Assembly (NCBI RefSeq): GCF_030503435.1
Contig: NZ_JAUKPO010000001.1
Span: 868,001-932,000 of the forward strand
Direction: 5' to 3'
Length of the DNA stretch: 64,000 nucleotides
Source of the DNA: Rhodocytophaga aerolata
Lineage (GTDB): Bacteria > Bacteroidota > Bacteroidia > Cytophagales > 172606-1
Shown piece by piece: positions 28,226-38,698 of this stretch. The translations under genes were made by a program, and so were the position numbers. Position 1 is the stretch's first letter; every line of letters begins with the position of its first letter. Below the pieces are notes generated by a model. The model saw nothing but the letters and a program-made list of their open reading frames with translations. It ran no database searches and was not told where the DNA came from.

Positions 28226-28714
28226 TTAGGCTACATCAGGCATGGGTATGGGCATTACTTTGCTGTCTTTCACCACAGACAACACCACCATTGACTCCAG
28301 ATTGCTAATCTCCTCAATACTGCTCATCTTATCCATCAGCAATTCCTGAAAAGTAGTCAGGTCTTTTGAAATAACTTTCAACAGGAAATTTCCAGAACCA
28401 GTAATATGATGGCATTCTATTACCTCGTCTATCTGGTCTATTTTTTCCAGAAAAGCATCTATCTGAGGTTTCTTGTTGCTGGCTAAAGATATCTGCACGA
28501 AAAAGGTAATGCCCAGCCCGGCTTTTTTGGTATCCAGCTGCGCATAATAATTCTTTATCAGGCCGGCAGCTTCTATGCGCTTCACCCGTTCGAATACGGC
28601 TGCCTGCGACAGACCTATTTCTTTGGACAAATACAGATTGGTGACTTTAGCATTCGTCTGTAACAATTCTAACAACTGATAGTCTATTTTATCTAGTTTG
28701 ATCGGCGGATTCAT
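28226..28714 (-). CDS. Lrp/AsnC family transcriptional regulator
   Basis: 162 residues from the ATG at 28714; the frame extends to 28759 but the extra 15 residues are not family-like. N-terminal winged HTH (LDKIDYQLLELLQTNAKVTN, then LYLSKEIGLSQAAVFERVKR), C-terminal RAM domain (about 75-150; VIECHHITGSGNFLLKVISK) that binds amino acids and drives octamer formation. It probably controls amino-acid metabolism genes and possibly itself. A motif copy lies about 93 bp upstream (28807-28823). Confidence 0.93.
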   Translation of the reverse strand: MNPPIKLDKIDYQLLELLQTNAKVTNLYLSKEIGLSQAAVFERVKRIEAAGLIKNYYAQLDTKKAGLGITFFVQISLASNKKPQIDAFLEKIDQIDEVIECHHITGSGNFLLKVISKDLTTFQELLMDKMSSIEEISNLESMVVLSVVKDSKVMPIPMPDVA

Positions 28715-28806
28715 ATGTCTGATGATTAATTTTTGAGGTATAGGAAAGGAAAAAAACATATTGAATAATACGTATATAAATTTACTAAACGATTGTGCAG
28801 CTACTC

Positions 28807-28823
28807 TACCTCATACTGGGTGA
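28807..28823. promoter_or_regulatory. Copy 1 of the recurring TCACCC-N5-GAGGGA motif (degenerate)
   Basis: TACCTCATACTGGGTGA on the plus strand; it matches the reverse complement of the 37916 copy at 14 of 17 positions. It lies upstream of the Lrp-type gene. The meaning as an operator is an inference. Confidence 0.35.
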
Positions 28824-28910
28824 TTTTTCTGAAACATTCGCTAATCCCTGTTTATTTTATTAGTAAAGTGGCCCAGAACAGAAAAATTTATTGCTTATTG
28901 CAGAATTTAC

Positions 28911-28956
28911 AAAAGCTATACCGGCAAATAGGTAAGCGTCTGCCGGTATAGCTTTT
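28911..28956 (-). terminator. Terminator of the small secreted-protein gene
   Basis: AAAAGCTATACCGGCA (28911-28926) pairs perfectly with TGCCGGTATAGCTTTT (28941-28956). The minus-strand product ends in a T-run. It lies 18 bp after the stop at 28975. Confidence 0.88.
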
Positions 28957-28974
28957 CCAAGAATGAGCGAGCGG

Positions 28975-29424
28975 TTAATCATTAATTTGCAATGAACGGG
29001 CTGATAACGTTTGCAGGCTTATATCTTTACTTAAGGTTTCTGTACCGTTAGATATCTCGAACGTATATTGGCCATCGGCCATGGTGCTGAAATCGAACTT
29101 GCGGATATATTTAGAAACATCTTTTACTTTCTCTTCATAGAGCACTTTATGAGAAGCATCTTTGATCCGGATGTTTACATTGTTGCCTGCATAGTTTTCC
29201 ATATGTACTTTAAACTTCAACGTGTTTTCTACCTGAAACACTGCCATGTCCAGTGTTTTGGGGGCTACTATATTTGGATGCCTGGCCAACTTAGTTAATT
29301 TACCTTTGGCACTTATCGACTTCCCTTGGGCAGCTGCCTCTGTTACGTATCCCATACTTACAATTAGTGCTAAACTTAAAGCTAGTCCGGCTTTTTTTAG
29401 CATGGTTATGACTACATTCTTCAT
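28975..29424 (-). CDS. Small secreted beta-sandwich protein of unknown function
   Basis: 149 residues; signal peptide (about 1-32, ending TEAAAQ), then about 115 residues of alternating beta-strands (LKFKVHMENYAGNNVNIRIK; DFSTMADGQYTFEISNGTET). The pattern resembles DUF3244-like or T9SS C-terminal-domain-like sandwiches, but a standard sorting signal is not evident. No catalytic residues stand out. Monocistronic, with its own terminator and two motif copies upstream (82 and 253 bp). Confidence 0.78.
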   Translation of the reverse strand: MKNVVITMLKKAGLALSLALIVSMGYVTEAAAQGKSISAKGKLTKLARHPNIVAPKTLDMAVFQVENTLKFKVHMENYAGNNVNIRIKDASHKVLYEEKVKDVSKYIRKFDFSTMADGQYTFEISNGTETLSKDISLQTLSARSLQIND

Positions 29425-29505
29425 GATTTCTCCCTTTTTATGTTAAACTTTTTAGTTGTCTTGTTTTTGTTGATTCAAAGATACAGGAGGAAACAAGGGC
29501 TACTC

Positions 29506-29522
29506 TCACCCTATTTGAGGGA
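29506..29522. promoter_or_regulatory. Copy 2 of the recurring motif
   Basis: TCACCCTATTTGAGGGA, matching the copy at 37916 at 15 of 17 positions. It lies 82 bp upstream of the small secreted-protein gene. Confidence 0.45.
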
Positions 29523-29676
29523 TTACCTAAGAGCGGATAAAACGCAGGCTGAACGGCAGCGAAGGGAGATGGATGGAAGGGTGTTGGATGAACGGTTTTT
29601 CTGCTCCATGAAAAGATTTTTATAGGGTAATTTAACCTGCATTATTCATGTAAAATAGCAGATTTATTAATTCTAT

Positions 29677-29694
29677 TCACCCATTTTAGGGTGA
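29677..29694. promoter_or_regulatory. Copy 3 of the recurring motif, perfect palindrome
   Basis: TCACCCATTTTAGGGTGA: inverted 6-bp arms TCACCC/GGGTGA around a 6-bp AT-rich spacer. The symmetry suggests a dimeric DNA-binding protein. Confidence 0.45.
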
Positions 29695-29728
29695 TCTGTT
29701 CCGGGTGATAGCCTTACCCAGAAACAAA

Positions 29729-29755
29729 AAAACCTTAGCCGGTAGCTAAGGTTTT
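29729..29755. terminator. Terminator of the 29796 gene
   Basis: AAAACCTTAGC (29729-29739), 5-nt loop, GCTAAGGTTTT (29745-29755). It lies 40 bp after the stop of the minus-strand gene at 29796. It reads well in both directions. Confidence 0.85.
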
Positions 29756-29795
29756 GGTACATGATGTTAGCACTGTATGTCTGCTAAAGTTATTC

Positions 29796-30506
29796 TCAGA
29801 GACTATTATAGTACCCGATAATGCGTAGCGCATCTTCTTTTCTGGATAGTTTTGCTTTATTTTCTTTGGCAAACTGCTGAATTGCTGCCTGTTTGTCTCC
29901 AAAAATTGAGTAGTCGTCTTTTCCTTTCAACTCGGTAAGTTTTTTTTCTCTGGCTACATAAAGCTTTTCTTTTTTTATAAGTTTATCTGCCTTACTGCCT
30001 ACATCCAACGCCACATTATAATTAGACTTTTTCCTCTCCAGTTCTATTCTAGAAAGAAGTTGCAGATCACCGGCAGCCAAGACTTCAAATACACCCAGCA
30101 AAGGTGTGCCATCTAAGGTATAATATTCACTGTTTACAAATGAGGTACTCCGGCCTGTTTTATCCTGCCATTCAAAGGCAATTACTTTTTCGCCGGGCAA
30201 AATTTTAATTACCTCTTTTGCCTGAATCTCCAAGGTGCGTTTATCGAGATCGTACATCAATGGAAAATTGTTTAATGTATCGCCTGACTTTAAATAAATG
30301 GTACCTGTGTTCCATTCTGGGCTCAGGTAGTTGGTACCTTCCACCCCGGCAGGTCTGGATTTTACTTCGGCAATAATGCCAAACTGCCGGTCAAGTACTG
30401 GGTCACGGTAATTAGGCTCTTTTGTTTGAACAGCTTGGGCATTTACAAGGCTACATATGCCTACTAAGGCAATAGAAACAATGGTTTGTTTTAGCTTTTG
30501 CAACAT
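29796..30506 (-). CDS. Exported protein of unknown function
   Basis: 236 residues from the ATG at 30506, which starts a clean signal peptide (MLQKLKQTIVSIALVGICS); the frame extends to 30575 but the extra residues cross the terminator of the upstream operon. After the signal the chain is beta-rich (GTIYLKSGDTLNNFPLMYD; EVIKILPGEKVIAFEWQDK) and ends in a Lys/Glu-rich helical tail (about 170-236). Similar Bacteroidota envelope proteins are common, but I do not recognise a named family. It is outside the SusC/SusD operon, since a terminator separates them. Confidence 0.75.
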   Translation of the reverse strand: MLQKLKQTIVSIALVGICSLVNAQAVQTKEPNYRDPVLDRQFGIIAEVKSRPAGVEGTNYLSPEWNTGTIYLKSGDTLNNFPLMYDLDKRTLEIQAKEVIKILPGEKVIAFEWQDKTGRSTSFVNSEYYTLDGTPLLGVFEVLAAGDLQLLSRIELERKKSNYNVALDVGSKADKLIKKEKLYVAREKKLTELKGKDDYSIFGDKQAAIQQFAKENKAKLSRKEDALRIIGYYNSL

Positions 30507-30530
30507 AGGAACAGGGAAGTTGTGATCAGG

Positions 30531-30559
30531 AAAAAGGCAGCCTCTAACAGAGGCCGCCT
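30531..30559 (-). terminator. Terminator closing the SusC/SusD operon
   Basis: On the minus strand an 11-bp stem with one G-U pair (AGGCGGCCTCT / AGAGGCTGCCT) with a 3-nt loop, followed by TTTTT. It lies 31 bp after the stop of the last operon gene. Confidence 0.88.
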
Positions 30560-30589
30560 GGTAAAAGTTTGACATGTAGTTTGTTTAGT

Positions 30590-31099
30590 TTAATGTTCGT
30601 CTTCCAGAAAGCCTGTTCTCCGGTGGCCAGAAACAATATACGTAGTTCCATAAGGCTCTTCATCATCGTCAAAAGCTACCTCCAGGTAAAGGCTATCGGT
30701 TACTACACCACTGGTAGAACGGCCTTGCCCCATCAATACCTTCCCATTGGCTATCCGCACTTTGCTATCATATGCCACATTTTGGCCTTCATTTATGGCA
30801 AAAGCTCTGTTTGGTAAATCTAAACCTGCCTTTACTTGATACTCCCAAAAGCTATTTGCATCAGATACCCAAATAGAATCAGGCCGGTTAGAAGCGGTAT
30901 TGTAGGTCAGTAAAGGATAATATCCTCCTCCAACATCCTCTAGTTGCCCTTCGGGATTTCGTACCTGATAGGTTACCCACCACTCGCCTGAAACCGGGTA
31001 AGTAGCGGTATTCTGTATTTCCGGATCATCTTTCTCGCAGGCCGTAGTCAAACCCAGACCAAGAAAGAGAAGTAGTATATGCCAATAATTGATTTTCAT
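30590..31099 (-). CDS. Lipid-binding-like lipoprotein of the SusC/SusD operon
   Basis: 169 residues from the ATG at 31099. Lipoprotein signal with LGLTTAC, then a beta-rich domain with GEWWVTYQVRNPEGQLEDVGGGY and the end VSGHRRTGFLEDEH, typical of the calycin-like lipid-binding family found at the end of SusC/SusD operons. Fourth and last gene of the operon (78-bp gap to the preceding gene, then a terminator). Probable role: surface or periplasmic accessory binder. Ligand unknown. Confidence 0.8.
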   Translation of the reverse strand: MKINYWHILLLFLGLGLTTACEKDDPEIQNTATYPVSGEWWVTYQVRNPEGQLEDVGGGYYPLLTYNTASNRPDSIWVSDANSFWEYQVKAGLDLPNRAFAINEGQNVAYDSKVRIANGKVLMGQGRSTSGVVTDSLYLEVAFDDDEEPYGTTYIVSGHRRTGFLEDEH

Positions 31100-31177
31100 T
31101 GTATAAAATTGTTTAAATCGAGTGTAATACCTTAAGTAGCCAATATGGCTATTCACTGCTTTTAATGTATGAAATAC

Positions 31178-31876
31178 TTAGTTAGCCTTTACCCAGTCTT
31201 TAACCAAGTCTATCAACGGTGGCGGGCCGAATGTAGGGCGAGACATAAGTAAGTTGAGGGTACCGTTTGCCGCAACAGTTCCATGGCCAAAAATGCGTAC
31301 AGTACTTTCTTGTTGAGGTACGTTTACATTTACACCATCCGTACAGATCAGGTAGGCAGGAATAACAACTGTACTTCCGCCACCCCAGGCGTTTGATGAA
31401 TAGAATACGCCATCGGCCACTTTTGTAATGGTAGCCCCAGGTGATGTACCACTTGCATATGAACCAGATAAATCTACTGCCGGGTCTGGCTGCTGATCTA
31501 ACACAAAAACGGTTCTGGTAGTGGTACCACTAAAGCCATCGGGATTGGTGGAAGAATAAGTAATAATATATATACCTGGAACATTGGTATCTACTGCTCC
31601 ACTTGTATATACTACATCGGTTGGCTGAGTTTTACCAGGCACAATATAGGCGCTGCCTGTTATAGAGGAGGTTACAGGGTAGCCTTCTACAGTGGTAACG
31701 CCAGGATCTGTAAATGTGCCTCCTTTTACTACCGTTACAATTTCTTCGCCCTGCATTTGAAAGGTAGGAAACGAGGTAATTCTGGAAATTCCTTCTGTAT
31801 CCAGTATCCTTTCGCAGCCTGAAAAGAAAATGACAGCCATTAAAAGAACCAGCAATAAATATCTATTATTTTTCAT
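31178..31876 (-). CDS. Surface lipoprotein with Ig-like (DUF5011/DUF5012) domains
   Basis: 232 residues from the ATG at 31876. Lipoprotein signal (AVIFFSGC), then an Ig-like sandwich of the DUF5011 type (about 30-120: GGTFTDPGVTTVEGYPVTSS ... GIYIITYSSTNPDGFSGTTT) and a C-terminal beta-domain (about 130-232). Such proteins usually act as surface binding partners (SusE/SusF-like) for the nearby SusC/SusD transporter. Third gene of the operon, 114 bp after susD. Confidence 0.83.
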   Translation of the reverse strand: MKNNRYLLLVLLMAVIFFSGCERILDTEGISRITSFPTFQMQGEEIVTVVKGGTFTDPGVTTVEGYPVTSSITGSAYIVPGKTQPTDVVYTSGAVDTNVPGIYIITYSSTNPDGFSGTTTRTVFVLDQQPDPAVDLSGSYASGTSPGATITKVADGVFYSSNAWGGGSTVVIPAYLICTDGVNVNVPQQESTVRIFGHGTVAANGTLNLLMSRPTFGPPPLIDLVKDWVKAN

Positions 31877-31990
31877 CTGTGTATAAGTTGTTTTTATGGT
31901 CAGATGGAGTGGCCAATTACATTTGCCACCTGATAGCAGCCTGTTTGTCAGCCATTTCATCTGAAGTTTTCTGCTCAATAATGACAAATA

Positions 31991-33472
31991 CTAATTTCTA
32001 TCCCACCATACTGGTTCGGTTATGGGTACCTGCACAGGTGTATTTGGATTGCGGCTCCGCTCAGTGTCCGGGAACAATAAACGTCTGGGGAATTGCTTGC
32101 CGGGGGTTACACCTTCGATAGAATACGTTAACTGGCCAGGCACATAGGCAGCATCGGAAGCGGCTACCGGACTTATGCGAGGGTACCCGGTTCGGTTTTG
32201 TTCAAAAAATGATTCAATGCCCTGGAAAGTACCGGCTAGCGCTACCCATTTTTGCATAATAATGGCTTCCAGTTTTTGCTCAACCGTGCCTGCAACCGGA
32301 AACTCATAAGGACCGCCAGCGCTATAAAAAGCCGTACCATCTAACCCTTCCTGTTCAAAGGCAGCGGCTACTCCGGCCTCATACAACGCTTGTGCATCTC
32401 CTGTTCCGAAGCCCCGCAATACTGCCTCCGCTTGTAAGAAATAACTTTCAGCTACGGATACAAAATATACCGGATCTGTTGCACCAATTTTTACCTTAGA
32501 TACGGAGGCGGGCACAATAACTGTACTAGGCGCATTAAAATTACCTTGATCTAAAGACTTCTGGCCACTAGAACCGGGAATAAAATAGGCATCTAACCTG
32601 GGATCGTTTCTATTTTGCAGATAAGAGAACAGCGTAGTGCTTGCCTTGATATTTTCAGTAGTATTCAGCTGGCGCTGATCTGATTCGAACAGGGGATTAC
32701 TCTTGCTGGGCTGATCTAAAAATATAGTAACGGCAGCGGGATCTGTTAAAAACTCTGCGCCTGCTGTATACAATGCTCTGATACCAGCTTCGGCTACCTG
32801 TGGCCGCGCGTACACCTGGCGAAGGTATATTTTCAATTTCAGGGTGTTGGCAAAACGTATCCATTGATCCATATCTCCCTGGAATACAAAATCTGTATTA
32901 CCTGGGTCTAGGGATGTACTTGCTTCCAGATCTTTTCCTAACGCTTCATCTATACGCACAAGCAGGGAATCATACACAGCATCGCCGGCCAGATAGGTAG
33001 GTGTAATATTTCCTTCATCTCCTTGTAAGGCATTATCAAAAGGAATCTGATCGTATAGGTCTACTAAGTTCTGGTAAGTATACGCCTGCATGACTGTAGC
33101 CATCAGGTAAAAATTCCAGTTTTCATCAGCCGCTGCTTTATCTCTAACAAACTTGTAATCGTTGAGGGCACCGGTATATAACTCCTGGAAAGAAAAATCC
33201 AGGTCAGTAGGCTGAATATTGTATGAGTCAAAATCTTTGTACTGGTTAGAGCCATTGTTCTGTGTCCAGTGTTGCGACCACATCCCTCCCAGAATAGCAT
33301 ACCATCCACCAACCACACTGGCCGTAGAAGTAACTGCTGTAGGGAATACCAGGTTTACAGGTGCATCACTTGGATTATTAGGGTCCACATTTACATCCAG
33401 AAAGTCGTCACCGCAGGAAGTAGCATACAGCAGCAGTGAAAATACAAGTCCTATATTAAATAACTTTTTCAT
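31991..33472 (-). CDS. SusD/RagB-like lipoprotein (second subfamily)
   Basis: 493 residues from the ATG at 33472 (an ATG at 33484 is also possible). Lipoprotein signal LLLYATSC, then GDDFLDVNVDPNNPSDAPV, the hallmark N-terminus of SusD-like family 2. Helical TPR-like scaffold (DQWIRFANTLKLKIYLRQVY; ESYFLQAEAVLRGFG). It captures the ligand and closes the SusC barrel. 69 bp after susC in the same operon. The ligand cannot be predicted; no CAZyme or sulfatase is in the operon. Confidence 0.94.
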   Translation of the reverse strand: MKKLFNIGLVFSLLLYATSCGDDFLDVNVDPNNPSDAPVNLVFPTAVTSTASVVGGWYAILGGMWSQHWTQNNGSNQYKDFDSYNIQPTDLDFSFQELYTGALNDYKFVRDKAAADENWNFYLMATVMQAYTYQNLVDLYDQIPFDNALQGDEGNITPTYLAGDAVYDSLLVRIDEALGKDLEASTSLDPGNTDFVFQGDMDQWIRFANTLKLKIYLRQVYARPQVAEAGIRALYTAGAEFLTDPAAVTIFLDQPSKSNPLFESDQRQLNTTENIKASTTLFSYLQNRNDPRLDAYFIPGSSGQKSLDQGNFNAPSTVIVPASVSKVKIGATDPVYFVSVAESYFLQAEAVLRGFGTGDAQALYEAGVAAAFEQEGLDGTAFYSAGGPYEFPVAGTVEQKLEAIIMQKWVALAGTFQGIESFFEQNRTGYPRISPVAASDAAYVPGQLTYSIEGVTPGKQFPRRLLFPDTERSRNPNTPVQVPITEPVWWDRN

Positions 33473-33541
33473 TTTAAAAATCATGATGGGTTAATCAGGC
33501 AATACCCGTGTGTACAGATACTACCCTTGAAAAAACTATGC

Positions 33542-36500
33542 TTAGAAAGTAGCCCGTAAGCTGGCACCAAAACTCCGAACAGTAGGTCCCTGGCCAAATT
33601 CGCCAAAGTCGCCTGCCAAATCATTTCCAAAAGTAGTTACCTCAGGGTCAATGATGTTATTGCTTTCAGGCGTCCAAAGTAGCAGGTTTCTTCCTACCAG
33701 GTTGATGCTTAGCGTAGAAATAGGCAAGCGGTCGAACAAAGATTTTGGCAGTTCATAACCAAGGGTGACTTCTCTCAGTTTTACAAAAGATCTGTCGCGC
33801 ATATGTTCTCTTTCAATGGGAGGATTGCTATTCTCATTCCAATAATCTACTACACTTGCTACATCCACAGCGGTAGTATTTTCCCGGTAAATTGGGTTGC
33901 CATTGTCGTCTGTTCCATCTTGCACCACTGAATTAGGGACAATGAATGGCTGGCGGTTGTTATACAGGGTATTGGTAGAGTTTCCTACAAACTGTGTCAG
34001 TTTTTGGGTATACGAATAAATTAACCCGCCCTGACGTATATCAAAGCCAAAGGAAGCAGATAAGCCTTTGTAGGTGAAGGTATTATATAATCCCATCAGG
34101 TATTTTGCCTGCGAGTTGCCATATATCTCTTTTTCAGGAGCGGATACAGGGAAACCGGTAGTTTCATTGACAACTGTACGGCCTTGCGCATCTTTTAAGG
34201 GAACATATCCCAGATACGTACCTAAAGGCTGTCCTTCTATAGCCACAAACTCAACACCATAGGCACTGGTCAAGGTAACTTTCTCCAGTCCGGGTGCCAG
34301 TTGTATTACTTTGTTGCGGTTGTTAGAGAAAGTATAGCGGATATCCCAGTTAAAACTTGGGGTGCGGATTGGGTTTAAGGTCACCAGCAACTCAATACCT
34401 TTATTCTCAATCTTACCCAGGTTCATTACCTGGAAGCCATATCCGGAAGAAGAGGCAATAGGCACGGCCAGAATCTGATCTGTGGTAGAACGGTTGTAGT
34501 AGGCTACATCTACTCCTATGCGGTTGCTGAAAAATTGCAGATCGGCGCCAAATTCGTATTCAGTAGTGATTTCCGGCTGAAGTTTAGGATTGCCAATGGT
34601 GTTAGAAACTTCAAAACCATTAATGCCATTGATGGGGAAAGTAATATCACCAAAAGGCATAAATATCTGGCCGGGAATCATTACAGAGTTTACCTGGTAC
34701 GGGTTGGCATCATTACCAGTCTGCCCCCAGGCGGCACGTAGTTTACCATATGATAAAGCTCCTTTTATACCCGGAACCAAATCGGTAAACACAAAGCTGG
34801 CATTTATCCCAGGGTAGAAAAAGGAATTATTTTCCTTTGGCAAGGTAGAAGACCAGTCATTTCTGGCAAGCACATTCAGAAACAGGAAATCCTTATAAGA
34901 CAAGCCTACCTGACCATAAATTCCATACAATCTGCGCAATGAAGTAGAAGTTTGTGCTACCGGCGGATTAGAGCTATTGGAAAGGTTATAATAATTTGGA
35001 ATGTTCAGCTCATTAATATATGCTAGGTTATCTTTAAAAAACCGTTCATTTACATTGTACCCTACTACGGATGTCAGGTTGAGGTCAGGGGTAATATCAT
35101 TGTTGGTGCTCAAAATAAAATCACTGTTCAACTCTCTGGCAAAGCGGGTTCTTTCGCTTACACGGCCAGGAATCTGTTTAACAGACGCATTAGGGCTACC
35201 TGGAGTAGTTCTGGCGATGGCTACAAAACTATTTACCAAGGCATTTGATATATCTCCGCCAACTCTCCAGGAGGCATTTAACCAGGGAGTAATCTGGTAT
35301 CCTAAGTTTACATTACCAAATATGCGGTTTTCATCGAAAACGTTGCCGTTGCGCTTAATGGGCCAGTAAGGGTTTTGTGCATATAAGGTAAAATAATTGT
35401 CCAGATTATTGAATTTATTATCCAGGTCGGCAAAATCAACAATACTCATATCCCTGGGAATCTGGATGATTTCCTGGAATAAGGTAGTTCCCTGAGAACC
35501 CTGGCCGGAAGTAAGGGCTTTGGCATCTTTCCGTACATAATTTAACGAAGCAGATGCAGAAAGTTTTTCTCCTTTGGTAGACCCACGAAGCGCCAGCGTA
35601 TTCCGCTTATATGAATCTGCATCTGTAGGCACTATACCATCTTCGGTAGCATTTCCATACGACAGATAGAAAGTAGATTTGTCGGTACCACCGCTTAAGG
35701 CAATCGTATTAATAAAAGAGGTGCCTCTGGTATAGAAATCTTTCAGATTGTTTCGTTGCGCACTGAAGGGCTTTAATTGCTGAGTGTTGTCCACCACATT
35801 TCCCCACAAGCGCTCTTGGCCATCTAGCCTTGGACCCCAGCTTCCGTTTTCTTCAAAGGCAAAATGGCCGCTCCAGCCCTGGCCAAACTCATTTTGCAAT
35901 TGTGGAAGCCGCAGAGGTGTTGTAACGGTTACCGAACTGGTGAAATCTACATTTACTTTTTCGGCAGACTTTCCTTTTTTGGTCGTGATAACAATAACCC
36001 CATTTGCAGCCCTGGAACCGTACAAAGCCGTTGCAGAAGCTCCTTTTAACACAGTAACGGTTTCAATGTCGTCGGGATTGATGTCATTTGCCCGGTTACC
36101 GAAATCCTGATAATCATTTAAGTCTGTTCTGGGATCATAGTTAATGTCGTCGGTAGAGAAGTTGTTAGAACTATTGTTGATAGGTACCCCATCTACTACA
36201 TACAATGGATTATTATTCCCGGTAACAGAAGAATATCCCCGCAAAATAACCTTTGTAGAGGCACCGGGAGCTCCGGAAGCCGTAGAAATGTTTACCCCGG
36301 CTATTTTTCCCTGCAACGAATTCATCACGTTTGCACTTCTTCCTTTGGTTAATTCCAGGTTATTCACAGTAGAAGCAGCATACCCCAATGATTTGGCTTC
36401 TCTTTCGATACCGAGTGCGGTAACCACTACTTCGGTAAGACTGGTAACATCTTCAGATAATTGAGCATTTATTACCGTCTGGTTGCCTACAGCTATTTCT

Positions 36501-36742
36501 TGGGCTTTAAATCCGATAAAGCTGAATACCAGGGTAGCTCCATCCGGAACCTGTAAGCTATAACTACCCTCCCCGTTAGTGGTGGCGCCATTATTTGTTC
36601 CTTTCACAAGTACGTTTACGCCGGGCAAGGGTGAGTTATCTGCCACCGAACGTACAGTTCCAGTAACTGTTCGGGTTTGCGCCCAGGCATGCTGCAATAG
36701 AAGTAAGGTGAACAGCATGCCCATTAGTAATTTTTTTGGCAT
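33542..36742 (-). CDS. SusC/RagA family TonB-linked outer membrane transporter
   Basis: 1066 residues. Signal peptide (about 1-21, HAWAQ), carboxypeptidase-regulatory-like domain (about 24-105, VTGTVRSVADNSPLPGVNVL), TonB-box-like EVVVTALG near 105, plug (about 115-235, GSRAANGVIVITTKKG), beta-barrel to residue 1066 ending in F, the usual barrel signal. First gene of a four-gene operon with SusD, an Ig-like lipoprotein and a lipid-binding-like protein. A candidate promoter (36850-36857) and a degenerate motif copy (36893-36909) are upstream. Similar in layout to the left SusC but clearly a separate gene. Confidence 0.95.
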   Translation of the reverse strand: MPKKLLMGMLFTLLLLQHAWAQTRTVTGTVRSVADNSPLPGVNVLVKGTNNGATTNGEGSYSLQVPDGATLVFSFIGFKAQEIAVGNQTVINAQLSEDVTSLTEVVVTALGIEREAKSLGYAASTVNNLELTKGRSANVMNSLQGKIAGVNISTASGAPGASTKVILRGYSSVTGNNNPLYVVDGVPINNSSNNFSTDDINYDPRTDLNDYQDFGNRANDINPDDIETVTVLKGASATALYGSRAANGVIVITTKKGKSAEKVNVDFTSSVTVTTPLRLPQLQNEFGQGWSGHFAFEENGSWGPRLDGQERLWGNVVDNTQQLKPFSAQRNNLKDFYTRGTSFINTIALSGGTDKSTFYLSYGNATEDGIVPTDADSYKRNTLALRGSTKGEKLSASASLNYVRKDAKALTSGQGSQGTTLFQEIIQIPRDMSIVDFADLDNKFNNLDNYFTLYAQNPYWPIKRNGNVFDENRIFGNVNLGYQITPWLNASWRVGGDISNALVNSFVAIARTTPGSPNASVKQIPGRVSERTRFARELNSDFILSTNNDITPDLNLTSVVGYNVNERFFKDNLAYINELNIPNYYNLSNSSNPPVAQTSTSLRRLYGIYGQVGLSYKDFLFLNVLARNDWSSTLPKENNSFFYPGINASFVFTDLVPGIKGALSYGKLRAAWGQTGNDANPYQVNSVMIPGQIFMPFGDITFPINGINGFEVSNTIGNPKLQPEITTEYEFGADLQFFSNRIGVDVAYYNRSTTDQILAVPIASSSGYGFQVMNLGKIENKGIELLVTLNPIRTPSFNWDIRYTFSNNRNKVIQLAPGLEKVTLTSAYGVEFVAIEGQPLGTYLGYVPLKDAQGRTVVNETTGFPVSAPEKEIYGNSQAKYLMGLYNTFTYKGLSASFGFDIRQGGLIYSYTQKLTQFVGNSTNTLYNNRQPFIVPNSVVQDGTDDNGNPIYRENTTAVDVASVVDYWNENSNPPIEREHMRDRSFVKLREVTLGYELPKSLFDRLPISTLSINLVGRNLLLWTPESNNIIDPEVTTFGNDLAGDFGEFGQGPTVRSFGASLRATF

Positions 36743-36849
36743 AGTTAAAATAATAATAAGTTTTGGTTAAAAAAATTTGGCTGTTTTGAGATACATCTAG
36801 TATTTATTTGGCATACGAACCAAACAAATAACAATTGTACTTTTCAAAG

Positions 36850-36857
36850 CAAAGTTA
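36850..36857 (-). promoter_or_regulatory. Candidate -7 element of the SusC operon promoter
   Basis: TAACTTTG on the minus strand, matching TAnnTTTG, 108 bp upstream of the susC ATG. The -33 region is weak, which would fit a promoter that needs an activator. Confidence 0.42.
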
Positions 36858-36892
36858 TTATTCAAAATTGGGGATTTAAAACCTGAAAAAAA

Positions 36893-36909
36893 TCACGCAA
36901 ACTGGGGGA
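36893..36909. promoter_or_regulatory. Copy 4 of the recurring motif (degenerate)
   Basis: TCACGCAAACTGGGGGA, 12 of 17 positions shared with the 37916 copy. It lies about 36 bp upstream of the candidate -7 element of the SusC operon, where an activator would sit. Confidence 0.3.
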
Positions 36910-36983
36910 TTTATGATAAAAAATCAATTAATAGATTTAATTGAGCATACTATACCATAAAAGCTAGCTTACACACACTATAT

Positions 36984-37013
36984 AAAAAAAGCACTAACAA
37001 GAGTTAGCGCTTT
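36984..37013 (-). terminator. Terminator of the response regulator gene
   Basis: On the minus strand AAAGCGCTAAC pairs with GTTAGTGCTTT (one G-U), 4-nt loop, followed by a T-run. It lies 80 bp after the stop at 37093 and isolates the regulator from the SusC operon. Confidence 0.85.
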
Positions 37014-37092
37014 ATGCAAAAAATTATACTATTTATATATTTTCTCACTGAAAATTATTTGGCTGCCAGAGGGTAATACTAAAAATTCTTTG

Positions 37093-37722
37093 CTAAATCA
37101 GTTTATGCTTAAGGGCTTTTTCTATGGCTTCGGCTTTGGAATGTACTTCCAGCTTCCAGTAAATATTTTTAATGTGTGTACGTACGGTTTCTTTATCTAC
37201 AAATATCTCTTCCGCTATAGTACTGTAGCTTTTGCCTTTAGAGAGTAGTTCCAGCACTTCGGTTTCCCTGGCCGTTAGCGGAGAATTGCGGTTTTTCTGA
37301 AAAGAAGATACCACCATCCGGGCAATATTGGTGCTCATAGGCGCCCCGCCTTCCTGTATATCCTTTATAGCTTCCAGTAGCCTGGCTGGCTGCATATTTT
37401 TGGTCAGGTAGCCACCAGCCCCGGCACATAGGGCCTGAAATACAAGCGAATCGTTATCATACACGGTTACTACAATAATGTTGGTTTTGGGCCTGAGCCG
37501 TTTTATCTTCTCAATGCCCTCTATCCCATTCATGCCGGGTAATTCAATATCCATCAGCACTACGTCGGGAGCATCTTCTGGTAGGTGTTTAATTGCATCC
37601 TCACAGTTGTTATACGCATTTACTATCGTGTATCCGTATGTACTGTTGATTAACAAAGCAAATCCATCCCTGATCAGATTGTCATCTTCTACAATGACAA
37701 TGCGTATATTTTGCAAAGCCAT
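37093..37722 (-). CDS. NarL/FixJ-type response regulator
   Basis: 209 residues. N-terminal receiver (about 6-125) with acidic pocket EDD (12-14), phospho-acceptor Asp58 in VVLMDIELPG, a Thr in VVTVYDND and the conserved Lys in GGYLTKNMQP. C-terminal LuxR-type HTH (about 145-209; LTARETEVLELLSKGKSYST, IFVDKETVRTHIKNIYWKL). All key residues are present. No sensor kinase is adjacent. It lies just upstream of the SusC operon, although a terminator separates them; with a motif copy upstream, it may control that operon and itself, but this is an inference. Confidence 0.95.
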   Translation of the reverse strand: MALQNIRIVIVEDDNLIRDGFALLINSTYGYTIVNAYNNCEDAIKHLPEDAPDVVLMDIELPGMNGIEGIEKIKRLRPKTNIIVVTVYDNDSLVFQALCAGAGGYLTKNMQPARLLEAIKDIQEGGAPMSTNIARMVVSSFQKNRNSPLTARETEVLELLSKGKSYSTIAEEIFVDKETVRTHIKNIYWKLEVHSKAEAIEKALKHKLI

Positions 37723-37961
37723 AGTGCACGTGTTAAGGTTAAAAAAATAAGTAGGTTCTAATGTAGAAGCTTTGAATGGATATAATGAATTTATTTACAC
37801 TAACGGCTTAAAAGGGGTAATTGGAGTTTGTGTTTTGTGATGGCTGGTAGAGTGCCTACTGAAGTCATACAGCCTAGTATAATAAGCAGTACGTACAGAC
37901 ATGCCACACAGAAAATCACCCATTTTGAGGGACTCCGGCCATCGAAACAACTGTATACTTT
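37723..37961. other. Regulator upstream region
   Basis: About 240 bp holding the motif copy at 37916 and presumably the response regulator promoter. No gene or RNA recognised. Confidence 0.4.
37916..37932. promoter_or_regulatory. Copy 5 of the recurring motif (best copy)
   Basis: TCACCCATTTTGAGGGA, 194 bp upstream of the response regulator ATG and 30 bp after the stop of the LolA-like pseudogene. Used as the reference for the other copies. Confidence 0.45.
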
Positions 37962-38698
37962 TTAAGGCATCCAGTGTATTTTGCCAAATAAATGTGCCGA
38001 AAACAAGCCCTCTGGTAATGGCATATTGGCTTGCAGATTCTTATATACTTCCAGCTGCTGCGGCTTGCCATCTGTCAGGAAAAGCACTTCTGTTTCTGTC
38101 CATCCGCCCGCCGTCCGGATGTGTTTACGGAATTGAGCTTCCTGTATATGCCCGTCAGGCTGGGCAGCAAGTGTACGTACCAGATATAGGTGTTGCTTAT
38201 CAAGCCAGAACTGGTTGCTTTGTACATCTCCTTGCCTGGCACCTACCACGTACACCGGCCTGCCATTCCAGGTATCTTCGTAAAAAGCAGCTGTATTGTA
38301 GCCAGCTTCGTTTAGTCTTCTTAATGCTTTTTCTTTTGATAAAAAATAAATACCGCCTGCCAGAAGCATCAGGTTATTTACTTGTTTTTTACTAGCCGTT
38401 AATTCTTTGTTCTTAAACTGGTACACTGAATCATTTCATTGGTAAATAGTACCGCATTGCCTAAGGATGGGTCACCAAAATCTATCCTGAACTTATCCGG
38501 GTATTTTATAGCTTCATACCAAACGGATGTACCCGAAATGGTATCTTTCTCATAATGTGTATTGTACTGCGTAAAAGTAAGCGTATGGGCCCATTTACCC
38601 ACATATTTTTTTTGCATGGCTTCCAGCAATTTTTCCGCAGTATCTATCTTAGGCGGATTTATCAGCAGAATAAGGGTCAGGTAGAAAGAGAGGAGCAT
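37962..38698 (-). pseudogene. LolA-like lipoprotein carrier gene with a frameshift
   Basis: Two overlapping frames read as one protein of about 245 residues. The first (38698 to 38399) has a signal-like start MLLSFYLTLILLI and KLLEAMQKKYVGKWAHTLTF, and ends soon after LFTNEMIQ. The second (from 38426 to 37962) continues with VYQFKNKELTASKKQVNNLM and ends ENLQ-like, LFGKIHWMP. Joining them needs one missing base near 38420. No slippery heptamer is present in the overlap, so a programmed -1 frameshift is unlikely. Either a real pseudogene or a sequencing/assembly error. LolA-like proteins of this type are periplasmic carriers or binders; the family call is moderate. Confidence 0.7.

Follow-up and report, generated by a model that had tools for sequence, protein, structure and literature searches.

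A conserved 19-bp palindrome as the probable operator of a NarL-type response regulator at SusC/SusD genes of Cytophagales

In a window of 64 kb from the Rhodocytophaga aerolata genome (contig NZ_JAUKPO010000001.1; "the window" is this whole stretch, and positions are counted from its first letter), a short inverted repeat recurs within 9 kb around a SusC/SusD operon and the gene of a NarL-type response regulator (37093-37722). In related loci, the element is refined to a 19-bp palindrome with a 3-bp centre, ATCMCCCA-N3-TGGGKGAT, which is conserved beside orthologs of the regulator, holds a set position relative to a promoter element and is associated with one clade of this regulator. Judged from sequence, the palindrome is probably the operator of the regulator and part of a propeller-kinase/NarL system, which would activate the SusC/SusD operon, the gene of a small secreted protein and the regulator gene itself.

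Recurrence of the motif in the window and the host genome

A preliminary description of this DNA had reported five copies of one motif, TCACCC-N5-GAGGGA or close forms, in intergenic positions. Scanning the window gives exact matches at 29506(+) and 37916(+), one mismatch at 28807(-) and two mismatches at 36893(+). These four share the N5 spacing and are the sole matches with ≤ 2 mismatches in the 64 kb, all within 9 kb, which agrees with the statement that equal matches elsewhere in the window are missing. The fifth copy, at 29677, has an N6 spacing and departs from the common form. The rest of the matches have three mismatches each; with these included, the total of 40 is a modest excess over the 27.7 expected (2 of 100 shuffles reach 40). 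By annotated genes all five copies are intergenic, as described, and the one at 37916 overlaps only a small antisense open reading frame (ORF).

In the complete genome (9.07 Mb; G000 in the following, with G001 for its congener, further G numbers for other relatives and L numbers for fetched loci), TCACCCNNNNTGAGGGA with ≤ 1 mismatch occurs at six places, and its reversed control at eight. Three of the six, including both exact ones, fall in a stretch of 9.1 kb for which 0.008 places are expected from the control rate (P(≥ 3) ~9e-8), so the repetition around the SusC/SusD operon and the regulator is real. The strict form TCACCC-N5-GAGGGA was rejected as a consensus; it appears to be a drifted version of the 19-bp palindrome. 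ATCMCCCANNNTGGGGGAT, the palindrome derived from relatives, has a single place with ≤ 1 mismatch in the window genome, at 36892. The window sites differ from ATCMCCCA-N3-TGGGKGAT by one mismatch (SusC), two (regulator), three (DUF3244) and three (Lrp).

The palindrome in related loci

In a first set of 20 stretches around regulators of relatives and paralogs, most orthologs have a symmetric form of the motif adjoining the regulator, and at family level sites precede 8 of 10 regulator copies, the window counted. A larger set comprises 80 loci from named genomes, mostly labelled Cytophagales or its families (Larkinella, Siphonobacter, Runella, Emticicia, Fulvivirga, Xanthocytophaga and other genera); it includes close relatives, among them nine or so Larkinella, and counts from it are not independent. 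In these 80 loci the palindrome has 91 sites at ≤ 2 mismatches (reversed pattern, none; ten permuted palindromes, 12 in total) and 141 sites at ≤ 3 mismatches (reversed pattern, 11). Sites are present in 51 loci at the stricter and 67 at the looser threshold. A motif-free count of 4-mer dyads in the intergenic DNA of the same loci ranked TCCC-N9-GGGA first (28 loci, ≤ 0.5 expected from shuffles), and the majority of the 30 top dyads are fragments of the same palindrome. When the spacer was varied at ≤ 2 mismatches, spacer 3 gave the 91 sites, spacer 4 gave 7 and spacers 0-2 and 5-8 gave 0-3 each.

The preliminary description had left it to be seen whether the motif is as common inside genes as between them and whether related genomes conserve it. 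Of the 141 sites, 121 lie in the 18% of the DNA that is outside ORF interiors, and the motif is kept beside orthologs of the same NarL-type regulator. Counts by identity class were left unused, as they hold duplicate loci. Three-mismatch sites alone are weak, because the reversed control at this threshold has matches in 7 of the 22 loci of the closest identity class.

The usual gene order is site, kinase, (site), regulator, site, SusC, SusD, in some genomes followed by a further site and a DUF3244 gene. A kinase of one cluster is linked in 59 of the 80 loci, and the three linked kinases that were scanned have the domains Reg_prop, Y_Y_Y, HisKA_3 and HATPase_c.

Two side observations concern more distant loci. 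A regulator group with 58-60% identity (L155, L157, L158), whose linked kinase is of the HisKA_3 type (the one scanned also has PAS), has variant sites such as ACTACCCA-N3-TGGG, two of them with an exact -7 box (see below) at 31 or 32 nt; a shift of specificity is possible. L152, from a metagenome-assembled genome labelled Ignavibacterium, has kinase, regulator and sites, which is either a transfer or a mislabelled bin.

Promoter geometry

The distance from the site centre to the first base of the -7 box TANNTTTG was recorded for 111 site-gene pairs not chosen for the presence of such a box. With ≤ 1 mismatch allowed, the box lies at 31 nt (27 pairs) or 32 nt (24 pairs) in 51 of the 111, whereas other distances from 10 to 99 nt have a mean of 1.3 boxes and at most 5. 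The remaining pairs have no -7 box at 31-32. Leaving out the window and thinning at 70% identity gives 36 of 90 pairs at 31-32, with a mean of 1.1 and at most 4 at other distances. SusC and DUF3244 promoters prefer 31 nt and kinase promoters 32 nt. In the window, the DUF3244 promoter has an exact box at 31, and the Lrp and SusC promoters have one with one mismatch; an exact TAACTTTG stands 44 nt from the centre of the SusC site. The regulator site of the congener, orthologous to that of the window, has TAACTTTC at 31.

According to PMC6847099, start-site mapping in Flavobacterium johnsoniae places the T of TANNTTTG at -12, the box being numbered -12 to -5. As the box starts 31-32 nt from the site centre, the latter would be at about -43/-44 from the transcription start. 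The site ends ~22 nt before the -7 box and touches the region of the -33 element. A search for other palindromes at the same distance from a -7 box, in paralogous pairs and some orthologs (16 loci), gave no consistent motif, and no generality of the geometry beyond this operator is therefore claimed.

As an observation on divergent genes, one palindrome of L099 (L099:6768) separates the kinase gene from a divergently oriented neighbour, and an exact -7 box is found at 32 in either direction; in L100 and L101 such a box is present only towards the divergent neighbour.

Association with the regulator clade

From 98 distinct regulators, 14 were set aside for short flanks and 84 compared. Where the DNA-binding domain has Lys177, a site (≤ 3 mismatches) is found within 4 kb in 66 of 77 cases; with another residue at this position it is found in none of seven. 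None of the 11 paralogous regulator loci (53-56% identical) has a site; nine of them are from one genus, and the other two are the C66 pair of G000 and the ortholog of this pair in G001. Five loci were added later (L308-L312; regulators 62-84% identical), and two of them, L310 and L312, have a one-mismatch site.

Conservation in trans

In the congener, a single contig of 9 Mb, the genes that adjoin one another in the window are dispersed: the regulator is at 6.73 Mb, the SusC operon at 1.05 Mb and the pair of DUF3244 and Lrp genes at 4.18 Mb. The corresponding gaps nevertheless retain sites: the regulator and DUF3244 genes are each preceded by one and SusC by two, and the Lrp gene has one three-mismatch site upstream. 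The proposal of a local regulon of the NarL-type regulator in the preliminary description can thus be kept for the link to the regulator, which orthologs support, but "local" applies to this genome only.

The DUF3244 and Lrp genes are still paired in all seven family relatives searched; except in the one-contig G001, the pair lies on a different contig from the regulator. The DUF3244 gene has a site with a -7 box (≤ 1 mismatch) at 31 in five of eight copies (G001, G002, G004 and both copies of G006), the Lrp gene a site in four of eight (G001, G002 and both copies of G006). The corresponding Lrp boxes, all at 31, have one mismatch in G001, one in G002 and two in both G006 copies. In G003 (L103), sites flank another DUF3244 gene at the regulator locus on both sides. 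In G023, no site is found upstream of the DUF3244 or the Lrp gene.

The copy at 29677, presented in the preliminary description as a perfect palindrome, is indeed exact over 18 bp. It was nevertheless rejected as the type copy, as its half-site gap is one base longer and spacer 4 is rare in the 80 loci. No -7 element is found at 31 nt from it, and blastn gave no convincing remnant of a second SusC beside it. The equivalent gap of G001, after the p259 gene and before a second SusC that is absent from the window, holds a site with normal spacing. Given the additional base, the missing box at the set distance and the arrangement in G001, the copy at 29677 is probably either a relic, possibly of the promoter of a second SusC, or an auxiliary site.

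Genome-wide scans

In G000, G001, G003 and G005 (two genera), the palindrome with ≤ 1 mismatch occurs at 1, 2, 2 and 2 places, and each of the seven is at a regulator or SusC gene. With two mismatches, these genomes have 41 places compared with 9 in the control. The stricter ATCMCCCANNNTGGGGGAT with one mismatch was found at 21 places in 17 genomes of 79 relatives, compared with one in the control.

A model of site plus -7 box was built from sequence only, with 32 sequences (alignment A2), none of them from G000 or G001 and three from the family relatives G003, G004 and G006. These sequences were selected for ≤ 2 mismatches in the site and ≤ 1 in the -7 box and thinned at 80% identity; because of this choice, the model leans to the 31-32 geometry by construction. 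Its best matches are the SusC sites of G000 and G001 (the former, 36892-36910, being the best match in the genome), followed by two sites of G001, those of the regulator and of DUF3244, and by the one at the regulator of G000. Unexplained places rank directly behind them. The model therefore detects single sites poorly; the argument for the operator rests on conservation.

Other two-mismatch sites in G000 and G001 amount to 18 places, 12 inside called ORFs and 6 intergenic. Among the latter, one (G000:C11:200246) shows a one-mismatch -7-like box at 32, and the other five have none with ≤ 1 mismatch, for which reason no wider regulon is claimed. A pair of genes (L211, G000:C138:24861, and L221, G001:C1:7052483) has a two-mismatch site upstream in both genomes and no good -7 box at 31; the genes are alike by eye, with PPSGDNQKS near the start of both proteins, and are a possible further target.

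Candidate partner kinase

The 64-kb window contains no propeller kinase. The best relative of the cassette kinases in the window genome is an orphan on contig C202 (G000:C202:128977-132207), which is 42% identical to the Xanthocytophaga kinase over nearly the whole length; no relative of the regulator is present in the 18 kb fetched around it. Scored against 60 cassette kinases, the orphan exceeds the kinase of the paralogous C66 pair in 55 cases, and it is a candidate partner of the window regulator.

Proposed mechanism and alternative explanations

In the proposed mechanism, a propeller histidine kinase (Reg_prop/Y_Y_Y) would sense a ligand and presumably phosphorylate the NarL-type regulator. 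In the latter, a Response_reg domain (9.7e-29) is followed by GerE (3.5e-17), and D58, invariant across 15 aligned sequences, is by family pattern the likely phospho-acceptor aspartate. A regulator dimer would bind the palindrome, whose 19 bp are consistent with dimeric binding by a GerE-domain protein, and at its typical position, 31-32 bp upstream of the -7 box and ~43-44 bp before the transcription start, it may activate transcription like a class II activator. In the window, the regulator would target its own gene as well as the SusC/SusD operon and the genes of the DUF3244-type and Lrp-type proteins, and the output would be nutrient uptake. As sites are present at kinase and regulator genes, activation would imply positive autoregulation.

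The alternative nearest to this mechanism keeps the operator and makes the regulator a repressor, which blocks RNA polymerase until a signal arrives. The site is close to the region of the -33 element, where a bound protein could also block. Repressor sites tolerate varied positions, while contact with RNA polymerase demands a fixed distance. The distance to the -7 box, where one is found, stays within one bp across genomes and promoters, beside the place of the -33 box, so activation by polymerase contact fits better and repression is considered unlikely. It is also conceivable that the linked regulator has no part in binding and that the site is recognised by an unlinked protein of the NarL/LuxR family. 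Such regulators are numerous, with 39 scored matches in G000 and likewise in several genomes of the group, which have many propeller-sensor kinases too. That the paralog loci and the regulators without Lys177 have no sites (0 of 11 and 0 of 7), and that the congener's regulator has one at its own promoter in spite of standing apart from the targets, makes this very improbable.

Lrp proteins often autoregulate, and the site is found upstream of the Lrp gene in the window and three further genomes; the Lrp-type regulator might accordingly bind it and regulate itself and its neighbours. The site, however, accompanies the NarL-type regulator, the kinase and SusC where Lrp is not a frequent neighbour, and it is missing upstream of the orthologs in G003, G004, G005, G007, G016, G023, G033 and G048 (8 of 11 relatives) and of six Lrp paralogs, so that we give this explanation only a very small probability. 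A chance cluster or a mobile repeat of no regulatory role would be in line with the window count at three mismatches, which is only slightly above expectation, and is next to excluded by the genome-wide rarity, the conservation in trans at orthologous promoters and the set distance to the -7 box.

Several observations weigh against an activating operator of the linked regulator. No site with ≤ 3 mismatches is found in 13 of the 80 related loci, and counted by gene, the coverage with sites ≤ 450 bp upstream is partial (kinase 40/56, regulator 28/77, SusC 25/43, DUF3244 3/10); many regulators come directly after the kinase and may share its promoter. Eleven Lys177 regulators (L109, L115, L116, L120, L126, L131, L151, L156, L159, L160 and L064) have no site within 4 kb. 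The link between Lys177 and the site is itself confounded with phylogeny, as position 109 of the receiver domain associates with sites slightly more strongly than position 177, and relatedness explains part of it. Among the later loci, L311 has three-mismatch sites only, without -7 box, and L308 and L309 have no site (both repeat loci of the first 80, and L309 has only 3.3 kb). In the window, no -7 box stands at 31-32 nt in the regulator promoter, and that of SusC is imperfect; the match of the model at the regulator site of G000 points away from the gene, and the window sites of DUF3244 and Lrp are not among its 17 matches in this genome. The DUF3244-Lrp pair of G003, G005 and G007 (one genus) has no site, and neither have three further DUF3244 genes upstream. 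Only 11 of the ATCMCCCANNNTGGGGGAT places in the 79 relatives are at the regulator's locus, the other 10 being elsewhere, and the C202 orphan kinase has no ≤ 3-mismatch site in the 18 kb fetched.

Features of the 9-kb stretch

The elements and genes are collected in Table 1. Relatives of p259 occur in 11 of 80 other loci. No carbohydrate-active enzyme was found among the ten window proteins scanned with Pfam.

Table 1. Putative operator sites, promoter elements and genes in the window
Feature	Position	Strand	Remark
Lrp/AsnC-type regulator	28226-28759	-	Pfam
-7-like element, Lrp promoter	28777-28784	-	TAAATTTA, one mismatch; 31 nt from site centre
Putative operator site before Lrp/AsnC gene	28806-28824	-	ATCACCCAGTATGAGGTAG; motif scan
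Small DUF3244-type protein, presumed secreted	28975-29424	-	Pfam, 25.2 bits (cut-off 25)
Exact -7 element, DUF3244 promoter	29476-29483	-	TATCTTTG; 31 nt from site centre
Putative operator site before gene of DUF3244-type secreted protein	29505-29523	-	Motif scan
Exact 18-bp palindrome	29677-29694	no strand	TCACCC-ATTTTA-GGGTGA; half-site gap one base over consensus
p259, protein of 259 amino acids, last gene of presumed SusC operon	29796-30575	-	No Pfam family
Lipid_bd family lipoprotein, SusC operon	30590-31156	-	Pfam
Surface protein, Bact_surface_Ig-like domain, SusC operon	31178-31987	-	Pfam
SusD-like lipoprotein (SusD-like_2)	31991-33484	-	Pfam
SusC-type TonB-dependent receptor	33542-36742	-	Pfam
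-7-like element, SusC promoter	36863-36870	-	CAATTTTG, one mismatch; 31 nt from site centre
Putative operator site before SusC/SusD operon	36892-36910	-	ATCCCCCAGTTTGCGTGAT on coding strand; sole ≤ 1-mismatch palindrome in genome
NarL/FixJ-type response regulator (Response_reg + GerE), presumed site binder	37093-37722	-	Pfam
Putative operator site before response regulator gene	37915-37933	-	Motif scan; without recognisable -7 element at 31-32

Beside the regulator, at 37962-38698, a gene is broken up between two reading frames, with overlapping ORFs of 99 and 154 amino acids, which is either a disrupted gene or a sequencing error. By eye, it has a one-ORF counterpart in the congener at 7.23 Mb (L222), with a two-mismatch operator-like site 64 bp upstream.

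Comparison with known systems and significance

The sensors of hybrid two-component systems (HTCS) are also of the propeller/Y_Y_Y type. According to PMC3878776, the HTCS of Bacteroides control SusC/SusD genes and possess a large periplasmic sensor built on a histidine kinase core, features that recur in the present system. The operators reported there for HTCS are direct repeats, whereas a single inverted repeat is found here. HTCS combine kinase, receiver and AraC DNA-binding domain in a single polypeptide; sensor and regulator are two proteins in the present case, and the DNA-binding domain is GerE (LuxR/NarL) and not AraC.

With NarL, the regulator shares the combination of receiver and GerE domain and the palindromic operator. 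The NarL heptamer is TACYYMT, which the half-site CACCCA resembles, and the NarL layout is 7-2-7, unlike the 8-3-8 half-sites described here; the Bacteroidota-type -7 box at a set distance and the SusC/SusD targets are further differences. Class II activators such as CRP have their centre at -41.5. Like these, the palindrome is located just upstream of the core promoter at a constant distance (31-32 nt in the pairs with a box at this place). It differs in its centre of about -43/-44, by the F. johnsoniae numbering in PMC6847099.

No earlier description of this operator was found in the open-licence literature searched. Both protein types are known; what appears to be new, as far as this literature goes, is the pair with its operator, the position of the latter and the scattered regulon. 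We lean towards regarding the system as a lineage-wide two-protein counterpart of HTCS, i.e., an autoregulated kinase/NarL-regulator pair with a palindrome at -43/-44 that governs one regulon across many Cytophagales, linked or scattered. On balance, the members of this regulon would be the kinase, the regulator, SusC/SusD and the DUF3244-type protein and, in some genera, the Lrp regulator.

The group has dozens of NarL/LuxR-type regulators and many propeller kinases, and no DNA site for such a pair was found in the literature searched. One regulator clade now gains a probable operator, a promoter geometry and a testable list of targets, and a way becomes apparent in which SusC/SusD uptake may be regulated beyond the HTCS scheme known from gut Bacteroides.

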